From positions 248,001-312,000 of the forward strand of contig NZ_JAOPHT010000004.1 of the NCBI RefSeq assembly GCF_025515305.1: 64,000 nt of DNA, written 5' to 3'. This document shows, piece by piece, positions 44,654-46,969 of the stretch. Position numbers and translations under genes: made by a program. This stretch comes from Roseicyclus sediminis. Lineage in GTDB: Bacteria; Pseudomonadota; Alphaproteobacteria; Rhodobacterales; Rhodobacteraceae. Within the stretch, counting starts at the first letter, position 1, and each line of letters starts with the position of its first letter. The notes beneath the pieces were generated by a model. That model did no database searches and was not told the DNA's origin. It was given only the letters and a program-made list of their open reading frames with translations.

Positions 44654-44950
44654 ATGAAGACGCTGATCTACGAACCCGACGCCAGTCGGGCGCGGGGCCA
44701 TGCTGCCCTGCTTGCCGAAGACGCCAGCGACATCGAGGTGGCACGCAGCCTCGCGCAGGCGCGGCTCATGCTGCTGAACGACAGGTACGACCGGCTCGCG
44801 CTCCGGCGCGGGGCAGGGGCGGCGCGCGCGCTGCTCGGGGCTGCGCGGGCGTCGAATCCCGATTGCGTCATGGTCGATCTCGGCTCTATGCGGGCGCGGC
44901 CGGTTTCGGGCCCCGCAGTGGCGGCAGTGCCCGCTACCGAAGCGCGCTGA
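44654..44950 (+). CDS. Small protein, possible degenerate response-regulator-like fold
   Basis: A 98-residue protein with no family I can name. The order strand (TLIYEPD), helix (ASRARGHAALL), strand (IEVARS) and helix (AQARLMLLNDRYDRLAL) is reminiscent of a receiver domain, but the phospho-Asp and Lys sites are not evident. The start ATG at 44654 has a good AAGGGAGG ten bases upstream. Its 3' end overlaps the convergent LysE gene by 17 bases. Real expression is plausible from the RBS and codon use. Confidence 0.5.
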   Translation: MKTLIYEPDASRARGHAALLAEDASDIEVARSLAQARLMLLNDRYDRLALRRGAGAARALLGAARASNPDCVMVDLGSMRARPVSGPAVAAVPATEAR

Positions 44951-45533
44951 ACATCGGCCAGAGCGAGGCCACCAGGAGCAGAGCCATCGTCACGTTGAAG
45001 GCCCTGAGCCGCCCAGGCGCCTCGAGCCAGCGGCGGATCTGCGTGCCGCCCCAGGCCCAGACCGTCACCGAGGGAAGGTTCACGGCGGCGAATGCCAGCG
45101 CGACGGCGACGGCGTCCCATGCCTCCTGCCCCGTGTTGTAGTTGGTCTGCGCGTAGATCGCCATGTACCAAGCCTTCGGGTTCACCCACTGGAAGCCTGC
45201 CGCCTGCAGGAAGGTGAAGGGCCGGCCCGCGGCCTGCCCCTCGCGCGGCGGGGCGGCGTTGGCGATGCGCCAGGCGAGCCACAGGAGATAGCCGGCGCAG
45301 GCCACCATCAGCGCGGTGCGCAGCCAGGGCAGCGCCGCGAAGACCCCGATCAGGCCAAGTCCCACGAGCGCCACCATAACGGCGTGGCCAACCGAGATGC
45401 CGAGCATGTGCGGCACCGTCCGCCTCAACCCGAAATTGGCGCCCGACGCGAGCAGCATGATGTTGTTCGGCCCCGGCGTCACGGAGGACGCGAAGGCGAA
45501 GAGGAGAAGGGCGGCGAGGATGTCGATGGTCAT
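44934..45533 (-). CDS. LysE/RhtB-family amino acid exporter
   Basis: A 199-residue inner-membrane exporter. The N-terminal FAFASSVTPGPNNIMLLASGANFGLRR is the LysE signature, and there are about six hydrophobic segments (for example ISVGHAVMVALVGLGLIGVFAAL, AWRIANAAPP loop, LPSVTVWAWGGTQIRRWL). The start ATG at 45533 gives MTIDILAALLLFAFAS; the longer open frame to 45674 crosses the divergent regulator gene. An Lrp-type regulator is divergently encoded 73 bases away, the usual partner of amino acid exporters. The exported amino acid is unknown. Confidence 0.88.
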   Translation of the reverse strand: MTIDILAALLLFAFASSVTPGPNNIMLLASGANFGLRRTVPHMLGISVGHAVMVALVGLGLIGVFAALPWLRTALMVACAGYLLWLAWRIANAAPPREGQAAGRPFTFLQAAGFQWVNPKAWYMAIYAQTNYNTGQEAWDAVAVALAFAAVNLPSVTVWAWGGTQIRRWLEAPGRLRAFNVTMALLLVASLWPMFSALR

Positions 45534-45574
45534 GGCGCCAACGCTCCCGCTTTCGCCCCCGAATGGAATTGCGA

Positions 45575-45604
45575 ATTGCGCGGCTTTCGCGCTATTTGCG
45601 CAAT
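45575..45604. promoter_or_regulatory. Candidate operator between LysE and the Lrp-type regulator
   Basis: ATTGCGC (45575-45581) and GCGCAAT (45598-45604) are exact inverted halves separated by 16 bases, in the 73-base gap between divergent genes. This fits Lrp/AsnC-type binding, which commonly uses spaced palindromic sites. Confidence 0.5.
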
Positions 45605-45606
45605 CA

Positions 45607-46059
45607 ATGATGAAAATTGACCAGAAAGACCGCCAGATATTGCGAGTTCTGGCCCGTGAGGGGCGGATCAGCAACCTCGCGCTGGCCGAGCGTGTCGCGC
45701 TCAGCCCCTCGGCGACGCTGCGCCGAGTGCAGGCGCTGGAGGCGGCGGGGGTGATCGCGGGCTACCGCGCGATGCTGGACCCCGCGAAGATGGGGCAGGG
45801 CTTCGTCGCCTATCTCTCGGTGGGGCTGAAGACGCACACGAAGTCCGCGCAGGCCGCCTTCGAGCAGGCGATGGCGGCGGCGTCCGAGGTCCGGGAATGC
45901 CACAACGTTACGGGAAACGTGGAATACCTGTTGCGCGTCGAGGCGGCGGATCTTCCGGCCTATAAGCGCTTCCATACCGATATCCTCGGCGCTCTGCCGC
46001 AGGTCTCGACGATCACCACCTATGTCGTGATCGGCTCGCCCAAGGACGAGCGCAAGTAG
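45607..46059 (+). CDS. Lrp/AsnC-family transcriptional regulator
   Basis: A 150-residue regulator with the N-terminal helix-turn-helix DQKDRQILRVLAREGRISNLALAERVALSPSATLRRVQALEAAGVI and a C-terminal RAM ligand domain (VRECHNVTGNVEYLLRVEAADLPAYKRF). Such regulators control adjacent amino acid transporters in response to amino acids. The start ATG at 45607 (MMKIDQKD) is the first of two neighbouring ATGs; the frame continues upstream to 45316 without homology. Divergent from the LysE exporter, which is the likely target. Confidence 0.88.
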   Translation: MMKIDQKDRQILRVLAREGRISNLALAERVALSPSATLRRVQALEAAGVIAGYRAMLDPAKMGQGFVAYLSVGLKTHTKSAQAAFEQAMAAASEVRECHNVTGNVEYLLRVEAADLPAYKRFHTDILGALPQVSTITTYVVIGSPKDERK

Positions 46060-46113
46060 GGCGCGGGGCCCGAACCTGTCCTGAAAACCCCGGCCTGCGT
46101 CGGCGCCCACGAC

Positions 46114-46254
46114 ATGTGGAGGCGCGCAACCCTTTGGGAGTCGGTCACGCGGGGCTTCGGCCCGGCGCTGGCGGCGCAGAGGCCCGTGCCCGTGCCGAAG
46201 CACGCCGCCGATCCGATGATGTTCGAGATGGGCGCAGTCGCGATTCCCGACTGA
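46114..46254 (+). CDS. Candidate 46-residue small protein
   Basis: An open frame MWRRATLWESVTRGFGPALAAQ... ending MMFEMGAVAIPD in the 230-base stretch between the Lrp regulator and the RNA array. The third codon positions are almost all G or C, as in the neighbouring genes, which is the only coding sign. I see no clear ribosome binding site, and no family is recognised. It may be chance in GC-rich DNA. Confidence 0.3.
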   Translation: MWRRATLWESVTRGFGPALAAQRPVPVPKHAADPMMFEMGAVAIPD

Positions 46255-46297
46255 CCGTGCCTCATGTCGCCGCACCGATGCTTTCGACAAAAAAAAT

Positions 46298-46334
46298 GGC
46301 GGTGATGCCGAGGGAGGAGGAGGGCATCACCGCC
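46298..46334 (-). ncRNA. CcsR-like hairpin 1, with terminator
   Basis: Perfect 12-bp stem GGCGGTGATGCC/GGCATCACCGCC around a 13-base loop with CTCCTCCTCCC on the minus strand. Seven T residues follow on the minus strand (46296-46290), making it the transcript end. Confidence 0.88.
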
Positions 46335-46339
46335 AGATT

Positions 46340-46368
46340 TCAGCGCCAAAGGGAGGAGGAGGCGCCGA
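46340..46368 (-). ncRNA. CcsR-like hairpin 2
   Basis: Stem TC-GCGCC/GGCGC-GA with one plus-strand A-C mismatch at 46342/46366 that becomes G-U in minus-strand RNA. The loop has the CCTCCTCCC core. Confidence 0.75.
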
Positions 46369-46375
46369 TTTGGGT

Positions 46376-46411
46376 GGCGGCGAACCCAAGGGAGGAGGAG
46401 GGTTCGCCGCC
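46376..46411 (-). ncRNA. CcsR-like hairpin 3
   Basis: Perfect 12-bp stem GGCGGCGAACCC/GGGTTCGCCGCC with a 12-base loop TCCTCCTCCCTT on the minus strand. Confidence 0.85.
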
Positions 46412-46419
46412 GGTCGTCA

Positions 46420-46445
46420 CGGTCCCAAGGGAGGAGGAGGGACCG
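46420..46445 (-). ncRNA. CcsR-like hairpin 4
   Basis: Perfect 7-bp stem CGGTCCC/GGGACCG with loop TCCTCCTCCCTT on the minus strand. Confidence 0.8.
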
Positions 46446-46478
46446 ATCCTTCCCCGGACCTGCGGGCCCGGGATCCTG

Positions 46479-46516
46479 GCGGATGCACCCCAAGGGAGGA
46501 GGAGAGATGCACCCGC
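46479..46516 (-). ncRNA. CcsR-like hairpin 5
   Basis: Stem GCGG-A-TGCA/TGCA-C-CCGC with one plus-strand A-C mismatch, a G-U pair on the minus strand, and a 20-base loop containing CCTCCTCCC. Confidence 0.7.
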
Positions 46517-46518
46517 AA

Positions 46519-46555
46519 TTCCCGCGACCCCAAGGGAGGAGGGGGCCGTCGGGAA
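46519..46555 (-). ncRNA. CcsR-like hairpin 6, first after the DUF1127 gene
   Basis: Stem TTCCCG plus CGACCCC pairs with GGGGCCG plus CGGGAA, with one bulged base and one plus-strand A-C mismatch that is G-U on the minus strand. Loop CTCCTCCCTT. It starts nine bases after the DUF1127 stop. Confidence 0.75.
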
Positions 46556-46563
46556 ATCTCGTT

Positions 46564-46785
46564 TCAGTCCGCCTTGCCGTATACGGCCTGGAAGGCGGCG
46601 CCCCGGAGCATCGACCGGTTCAGGCCGAGGTCATCCAGTTCCCGGCCCGAGAGCTCGTTCAGCTCGGCCAGGGTGCGATGGTAAAGCCGCCATGCGGCGT
46701 ATGCTTCTGCGGCCTGCTTGCCGATTTCGGCAAGGCGCGCGCCTACAGAAATGCTTGTGGTCCGGTTGCTCGATACGTAAGCCAT
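46564..46785 (-). CDS. ccaF1: DUF1127 small protein, CcaF1-like
   Basis: A 73-residue protein whose C-terminal 40 residues are a DUF1127 domain (YHRTLAELNELSGRELDDLGLNRSML). DUF1127 proteins are small, arginine-containing and RNA-linked. The Rhodobacter homologue CcaF1 precedes the CcsR RNAs and influences RNA maturation. The start ATG at 46785 gives MAYVSSNRTTSISVGARLAEIG, with GAGGA six bases upstream. The six-hairpin array starts nine bases after its stop on the same strand. The symbol is by synteny and domain, not proven. Confidence 0.85.
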   Translation of the reverse strand: MAYVSSNRTTSISVGARLAEIGKQAAEAYAAWRLYHRTLAELNELSGRELDDLGLNRSMLRGAAFQAVYGKAD

Positions 46786-46861
46786 AGCGTCCTCAAATCT
46801 TGATGCGGCGAACCCGAATGGCCCGGCGCTGGAGCATTTCGATCACCCCGTTACGATTGGA

Positions 46862-46888
46862 AGATAAGGAAATGCTGCAGGTGCACAA
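46862..46888 (-). promoter_or_regulatory. Candidate RpoH-type promoter of the DUF1127-hairpin unit
   Basis: Minus-strand CTTATCT (46868-46862) matches the RpoH -10 pattern CYTATNT, and TTGTGC (46888-46883) lies at suitable spacing upstream. The Rhodobacter CcaF1-CcsR unit is stress-sigma controlled, which fits. This is sequence inspection only. Confidence 0.4.
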
Positions 46889-46969
46889 TAACCGAGGGTT
46901 CAATGCTGCTATGCAGAAACCGCATAGGTCGTCGCGCCCTTGCGCGCTAGGGCCCGAAGCGCTTTGAGC

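Follow-up and report, generated by a model that had tools for sequence, protein, structure and literature searches.

A DUF1127 gene and three CcsR-like hairpin pairs in Roseicyclus sediminis: a probable, typical-size member of a widespread anti-Shine-Dalgarno RNA system

In R. sphaeroides, four named CcsR RNAs lie behind ccaF1 at a locus named CIN1 (PMC10253847), and the functions of CcsR and CcaF1, the co-transcription of gene and RNAs, and processing by RNase E and CcaF1 have been described for relatives of the organism studied here (PMC10253847, PMC8625941, PMC7866481; these and the papers cited below are used for the portions of their text that were available). In Rhizobiales, RNAs of the 'cuckoo' kind carry 2-4 hairpins as published (PMC4504443), and one of this group, NfeR1 of S. 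meliloti, silences via anti-Shine-Dalgarno (anti-SD) pairing, is reported to be Hfq-independent and has TGCA-N6-GCAT at its promoter as the box of the regulator LsrB (PMC10746234).

The locus described here lies on the minus strand of a 64-kb window (the whole stretch of DNA that was analysed) and is an ordinary, typical-size member of this widespread, known anti-SD sRNA system. Like CcaF1-CcsR1-4 of the R. sphaeroides CIN1 locus, it has a DUF1127 gene directly upstream, on the same strand, followed by tandem CCUCCUCCC-loop RNAs; like the ccaF1-CcsR operon, it ends at its 3' side in a Rho-independent terminator, here hairpin 6 and eight T; and each of its three units aligns with the CcsR1 model over the full length of the model. 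It differs from CcaF1-CcsR1-4 in having three units rather than four and in scoring below the Rfam gathering threshold. The ccaF1-CcsR operon has an RpoHI/RpoHII promoter; in the window, a conserved TTGTGC-N15-(T/C)TATCT element is a candidate promoter for an RpoH-type or housekeeping sigma factor. A first-pass annotation of the same DNA had proposed a likeness to the Rhodobacter layout, and this is borne out by the DUF1127 gene, the tandem motif hairpins and the RF02791 matches.

The locus also resembles the alpha-r14/NfeR1/'cuckoo' RNAs of Rhizobiales (RF02344) in its adjacent hairpins, variable stems and shared CCUCCUCCC loop, and NfeR1 in its TGCA-N6-GCAT promoter boxes (PMC10746234). Unlike the window array, NfeR1 has three hairpins, and the available text of that paper mentions no DUF1127 gene with it. 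The features by which the cuckoo/CcsR-like class has been described (PMC3927594, PMC4504443) are all present in the window: adjacent variable-stem hairpins with the CCUCCUCCC loop, read as two per unit.

The gene, the six hairpins and their units

The motif CCTCCTCCC occurs six times, exactly, on the minus strand between 46312 and 46542, with no other copies in the 64-kb window; in 100 shuffles of the window, its count averaged 1.2 and reached a maximum of 5. Elsewhere in the genome there are five further CCTCCTCCCT sites, each single on its contig. At all six array sites the motif lies in a hairpin loop, with 12-17 pairs counted per hairpin, and 46285-46566 folds at -147.4 kcal/mol compared with -108.1 for shuffles (0 of 200 shuffles as good). 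The exact motif count and this fold (z = -8.16) confirm the first-pass claim of six minus-strand hairpins with an anti-SD-like loop core behind a DUF1127 gene. They were said to follow the gene within nine bases, which holds, with the end of the stop codon at 46564 and the start of the first stem at ~46556; the interval given for the array, 46290-46785, stands only for 46298-46556, the span of the hairpins on the minus strand, since 46564-46785 is the gene. The features of this region are:

46564..46785, minus strand: DUF1127 gene, 73 aa, CcaF1-like (PF06568, 50.4 bits, E 1.8e-13)
46519..46556, minus strand: hairpin 1, type A, unit 1 (motif and fold)
46479..46518, minus strand: hairpin 2, type B by position, unit 1 (motif, fold and Rfam unit)
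46452..46472, minus strand: small GC-rich hairpin without the motif, between units 1 and 2 (fold)
46419..46447, minus strand: hairpin 3, type A, unit 2 (motif and fold)
46376..46411, minus strand: hairpin 4, type B, unit 2, with 12 perfect pairs (motif, fold and Rfam unit)
46341..46370, minus strand: hairpin 5, type A, unit 3 (motif and fold)
46289..46334, minus strand: hairpin 6, type B, unit 3, followed by eight T; Rho-independent-type terminator (sequence and fold)

Hairpin 6 is an anti-SD hairpin doubling as a predicted terminator. A generic terminator scanner with a loop limit of 8 returned no terminator in the window array, the loop of hairpin 6 being 13.

The DUF1127 protein is 73-79% identical to its counterparts in four relatives of the genus, and an RNA-binding role may be assigned to it by analogy with R. 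sphaeroides CcaF1. Two other DUF1127 genes of the genome (L174, G000:C6:79001; L175, G000:C32:16651) stand without a hairpin array. Among the motif-pair matches listed for family genomes, 15 arrays were picked by hand, and 13 of these are preceded by a same-strand DUF1127 gene, 21-76 bases from the first motif; for the arrays L047 and L054, the profile found no DUF1127 gene upstream. A plasmid search returned 119 records, all below 60% identity. By eye, a perfect inverted repeat, CTTGCCGA-AA-TCGGCAAG, was seen inside the DUF1127 reading frame at 46717-46734. Divergent genes for a LysE-type exporter and an Lrp/AsnC-type regulator adjoin the array at 44934-46059, and the regulator gene probably begins further downstream than its listed start.

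In a permissive Rfam scan, RF02791 (CcsR1) tiled the array as three back-to-back, non-overlapping matches, each covering model positions 1-83 of 83:

46474-46558, minus strand: unit 1, RF02791 match (38.0 bits, E 9.7e-8)
46372-46452, minus strand: unit 2, RF02791 match (32.0 bits, E 5.9e-6)
46294-46371, minus strand: unit 3, RF02791 match (28.9 bits, E 4.7e-5)

Since these matches are full-length and all three score below the RF02791 gathering score of 65.3 bits, the units are CcsR-like rather than formal members of RF02791, and the comparison with Rfam CcsR-like models that the first-pass annotation had proposed as a check supports the likeness to that degree. RF02344 (ar14) matched at 50.1 bits over 46294-46417, the 3' half, and at 30.6 bits over 46434-46559, both below its gathering score of 58.8 bits. 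The permissive scan gave 22 matches up to E 10, most of them to unrelated families (e.g. RF01066 6C, 31.7 bits); at the gathering score, the window yields one Rfam match, a tRNA.

The RF02791 CcsR1 model describes one RNA with two motif hairpins. We take RSs0680a to be CcsR1. RS0680a was described with two stem loops bearing the anti-SD motif (PMC3927594). Direct support comes from one relative, L018 (G051), which has the best CcsR1 match among the six sources given the permissive scan (five loci and the window): there, the hairpin pair that comes first after the DUF1127 gene reaches 106.2 bits. One CcsR RNA being two hairpins, the window array therefore comprises three CcsR-like units, and the unit of the array seems to be the hairpin pair and not the single hairpin.

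Array size and hairpin architecture among relatives

For comparison, we took the best 80 of the 226 loci that a DUF1127 similarity search gave, two of which, L132 and L135, are possibly copies of one contig. With a hairpin caller that allowed one mismatch and required six pairs, these 80 loci ranged from 0 to 14 hairpins, although the numbers are approximate and mostly lower bounds because of contig ends (e.g. L127, L151) and the caller settings:

0 to 5 hairpins: 0 (3 loci), 1 (4), 2 (7), 3 (2), 4 (16), 5 (9)
6 to 14 hairpins: 6 (17 loci), 7 (5), 8 (5), 9 (3), 10 (5), 11 (1), 12 (2), 14 (1)

Six (17/80) and four (16/80) are thus the commonest sizes among the best 80 of 226, and 22 of the 80 exceed six. 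In the window's own genus, strict calls gave 6, 6, 6, 8 and 7, with additional uncalled copies at the loci called 8 and 7. Across the family, 218 of 295 genomes hold at least one exact motif pair 24-54 bases apart, a count whose backwards control also matches arrays and is no clean null. The longest array read, L038 (G169:C1, minus strand), has 26 hairpins and contains a 140-base three-hairpin higher-order repeat in ~6.5 copies. Five genomes of the genus of G051 carry 4 (+1 elsewhere), 4 and 4 on two contigs (a split assembly), 4, 5 and 7 exact pairs.

The first-pass annotation had called the array expanded, with six RNAs where Rhodobacter has four. This was not borne out, because six hairpins had been set against four two-hairpin RNAs: the six make up three two-hairpin units, fewer than the four of R. 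sphaeroides, and among the 80 loci compared six and four hairpins are the commonest array sizes. We therefore rejected an 'expanded array', given that the CcsR1 model covers two hairpins, that six hairpins are common among relatives and that pair counts run from 4 to 7 in the genus of G051.

Some further observations concern single records. At L018 (G051:C4), 732-1345 holds seven hairpin pairs, with a 114-base unit in 5.4 copies at a 95% match. If this genome is R. sphaeroides or close to it, for which four CcsR RNAs have been published, the difference may come from strain variation or from collapse of the repeat in earlier assemblies. The record titles 'Nocardioides marinus' (L156), 'Flavobacteriia' (L135/L132) and, likewise, 'Maritalea mobilis' (L086) are ill-fitting, though the records carry such a locus.

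Two hairpin types tend to alternate (A-B) in the arrays of relatives, as judged from their spacing and 5' arms. Of the 96 spacings of 55-90 bases among the best 80 of 226 loci, 83 come after an even-numbered hairpin, and GCGGY/GCGGAG stands in the 5' arm of 136/206 even hairpins compared with 28/230 odd ones, although this signature was picked from the consensus of the same, mutually related loci, so that the even/odd contrast is not independent. In the window, hairpins 4 and 6 carry the tested signature, hairpins 1, 3 and 5 lack it, and hairpin 2 has GCGGG in its 5' arm, which lies outside it. All 96 long spacers from the best 80 of 226 loci fold to -5 kcal/mol or better (mean -10.4), compared with 49% of base shuffles (mean -5.5), and in most of the first 60 inspected the fold is one short GC-rich hairpin. 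A/U-rich bases seen by eye 5' of this small hairpin in relatives are a possible RNase E site. The window has a single long spacing, of 65 bases, after hairpin 2, and it holds the motif-free hairpin 46452-46472; between units 2 and 3 the distance is 39 bases, and there is no such hairpin.

Each stem is a private pair, as measured by the pairing of fixed arms, without folding, at 378 exact motif sites from 76 of the best 80 of 226 loci. A motif's own arms paired at 10.57 of 12 positions, compared with 8.11 +/- 0.05 for arms permuted across sites and 8.14 when the partner came from elsewhere in the same array, and 10 pairings were reached by 305/378 own arms and 326/2162 within-array swaps. Motif sites outside arrays (L085-L164) averaged 10.6, with 4/5 at 10 or above, so that isolated hairpins of this kind may exist elsewhere; five sites are too few to judge, and they do not separate from arrays. 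Between the window and two genus relatives of the same layout, 12 hairpin comparisons gave 124 unchanged stem pairs, 9 in which both sides had changed with pairing kept, 8 with a change on a single side and 14 unaligned, a count in which broken pairs cannot appear because only folded pairs enter. In hairpin 3, two of the changes that affect both sides occur in each of the two relatives. The own-arm pairing, the both-sided changes and the RF02791 matches together bear out that the stems are preserved as pairs in relatives. As for the first-pass description of quite different stems with a shared loop, the anti-SD loop is indeed the shared part, but the stems are not wholly unrelated, since even hairpins of the relatives tend to a GCGGY-type 5' arm.

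The ends of the arrays were read at the 73 loci with at least two called hairpins (of the best 80 of 226). There, the first motif lies at a median of 31 nt behind the gene, as found by a caller that searched only within about 400 nt of it. At least four T follow the last hairpin in 46/73 arrays compared with 11/359 internal hairpins, and at least five T in 25/73 compared with 3/359.

Promoter boxes and a putative LysR-type circuit

Upstream of the DUF1127 gene, the following elements were found:

46911..46924, minus strand: upstream LTTR-type box TGC(G)-N6-GCAT, one mismatch to TGCA-N6-GCAT; variants in four other genomes of the genus
46901-46915, minus strand: 15-mer two mismatches from the published Brucella VtlR box (PMC12595884), overlapping the upstream LTTR-type box
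46872..46885, minus strand: second box, TGCA-N6-GCAT, exact, overlapping the -35-like TTGTGC (sequence match)
46861..46888, minus strand: predicted core promoter TTGTGC-N15-(T/C)TATCTT, aligned in 5/5 genomes of the genus

The upstream regions of the five genus genomes all contain variants of TGCATAGCAGCATTG and of TTGTGCA-N3-GCAGCAT, the latter with (C/T)TATCTT after it. Among the best 80 of 226 loci, 39 match the strict core-promoter pattern, one of them (L161) apparently by chance. An exact TGCA-N6-GCAT stands upstream of the DUF1127 gene at 70 of the 80 (at least two at 31) compared with 0 of 77 farther-upstream regions, and a box with one mismatch at 79/80 (at least two at 69) compared with 15/77 controls (at least two at 1); because similar words had already been noticed there and the loci are related, this enrichment lends support but does not amount to an independent test. 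At L018, an exact box and a box with a mismatch occupy the same places as in the window. In the same set, promoters within two mismatches of the Brucella VtlR box number 42/80, compared with 2/77 controls.

The locus is like the VtlR-controlled DUF1127 genes of Brucella in that a DUF1127 gene stands under predicted LysR control, its promoter 15-mer differing at 2/15 positions (PMC12595884); the Brucella VtlR set comprises AbcR2 and three DUF1127 proteins, with no anti-SD array named in the available part of that paper. The A. tumefaciens VtlR box has been given as GCAT-N3-TG-N3-T, and VtlR/LsrB circuits are reported to have diverged between species (PMC7486931); the window 15-mer departs from this box in having AG at the TG position. 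In a search by synteny only, on a contig that ends nearby, we found no LysR gene beside trxB in the genome and identified no VtlR orthologue in the trxB neighbourhood. Neither of the two ORFs next to trxB (314 and 157 aa) matched Pfam at E 1e-5, and for the longer one the PDB gave no match either; the 688-aa neighbour of trxB is an ATP-sulfurylase/APS kinase. For RpoH, the genome contains one protein that exceeds the family cut-off (371 bits) and one RpoH-like match below it (274 bits). A literature search that mostly covered papers outside subscription yielded none that joins CcsR with a LysR regulator or describes such promoter boxes at CcsR loci; PMC11089165 has CcaF1 and LysR in its reference list only. 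Conservation of the double operator points to a LysR circuit of a single kind that may govern both anti-SD sRNAs and DUF1127 genes, in Rhizobiales as well as in Rhodobacterales.

How the locus may work and what it means

We consider the locus, with a probability of about 0.85, to be a CIN1-type operon of the ccaF1-CcsR kind, in which a DUF1127 mRNA and three CcsR-like units would be processed into anti-SD RNAs. The layout, the hairpins with their private stems, the terminator-like end and the conserved boxes can be seen in the DNA itself; transcription, processing and silencing would proceed as in relatives. One promoter would give a transcript of ~0.56 kb with the DUF1127 ORF, a 3' UTR of three two-hairpin units and an end at hairpin 6. 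Its transcription would likely depend on an RpoH-type or housekeeping sigma factor and on an LsrB/VtlR-type LysR regulator, predicted to bind at the two TGCA-N6-GCAT boxes. The precursor would probably be cut between units by RNase E, with the DUF1127 protein taking part, to yield short RNAs, whose single-stranded CCUCCUCCC loops, judging from R. sphaeroides CcsR and S. meliloti NfeR1, would pair with GGGAGGAGG-like Shine-Dalgarno sequences and lower the translation of many mRNAs. Since all loops are identical, the number of units is most likely a matter of dose or redundancy rather than of which targets are hit. Hfq is present in the genome, although its role need not carry over, as NfeR1 is reported to act independently of it.

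The predicted targets are generic. The arrangement GGGAGGAG-N3-10-ATG was found at 35 sites (control 5) and three other NGGAGGAG forms together at 87 (control 13), or 29 per letter; we rejected a selected GGGAGGAG target set because its frequency per letter is about that of the other forms, and with GGGAGGAG starts not over-represented no such set is visible. Among the 35 sites, one (L080) reads the array itself in antisense, and two more coincide, differing in the start codon used. We read 30 of the 35, some of which are without a convincing gene (e.g. L067, L068), and regard the perfect 8-base matches as candidate targets, as leads only. Family searches of 16 candidate target proteins gave AcsA, three ABC permeases, an NMT1-type receptor, two TctC receptors, GlpK and fumarylacetoacetase among others; an E1 dehydrogenase component and a GlcD-like oxidase fell below the family cut-offs.

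Three other readings of the hairpins were weighed. They could act mainly in cis, as a 3'-UTR element for stability and termination or by titrating the DUF1127 protein in an autoregulatory sponge, with anti-SD silencing in trans playing a small part. The short distance from gene to first motif and the T run that often follows the last hairpin would suit such a role, as would the report that R. sphaeroides CcaF1 acts on CcsR RNAs (PMC10253847, PMC8307010). However, a stability element would presumably not need one nine-base anti-SD loop on six different stems, NfeR1 with mutated anti-SD seeds loses ntrB silencing (PMC10746234), and CcsR RNAs are reported to target flhR (PMC8307010); we therefore judge a mainly cis-acting array unlikely.

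A true expansion to six separate RNAs is very improbable: six hairpins are present and four CcsR RNAs are named in R. sphaeroides, but a single CcsR1 model spans two hairpins, and both the pair counts in the genus of L018 and the 22 relatives with more than six hairpins speak against it. Hardly any weight falls on a low-complexity pyrimidine repeat or coding artefact without RNA function, even though overlapping open frames run through portions of this region (46020-46493 minus, 46116-46787 plus), the loop sequence is a plain CCT repeat and the few motif sites outside arrays are also high in arm pairing, for these points are set against the fold energy, the private stem pairing, the both-sided changes in relatives and the Rfam matches.

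Returning to the CIN1-type operon, a broader proposal for Rhodobacterales is tentative, and we hold it at somewhat less than even odds: DUF1127-CcsR arrays may be dose cassettes that expand and contract freely (from 1-2 to 26 hairpins), built largely of A-B pairs set off by a small processing hairpin, and may at the same time make up a branch of the LsrB/VtlR regulon that has gone unrecognised, linked to it by the paired TGCA-N6-GCAT operator, which is also found at L018. The interest of the locus lies in three testable points, namely the hairpin-pair unit, the variable array size and the conserved double operator, and the wide variation of array size between genera offers a natural test of whether the dose of anti-SD sRNAs matters.
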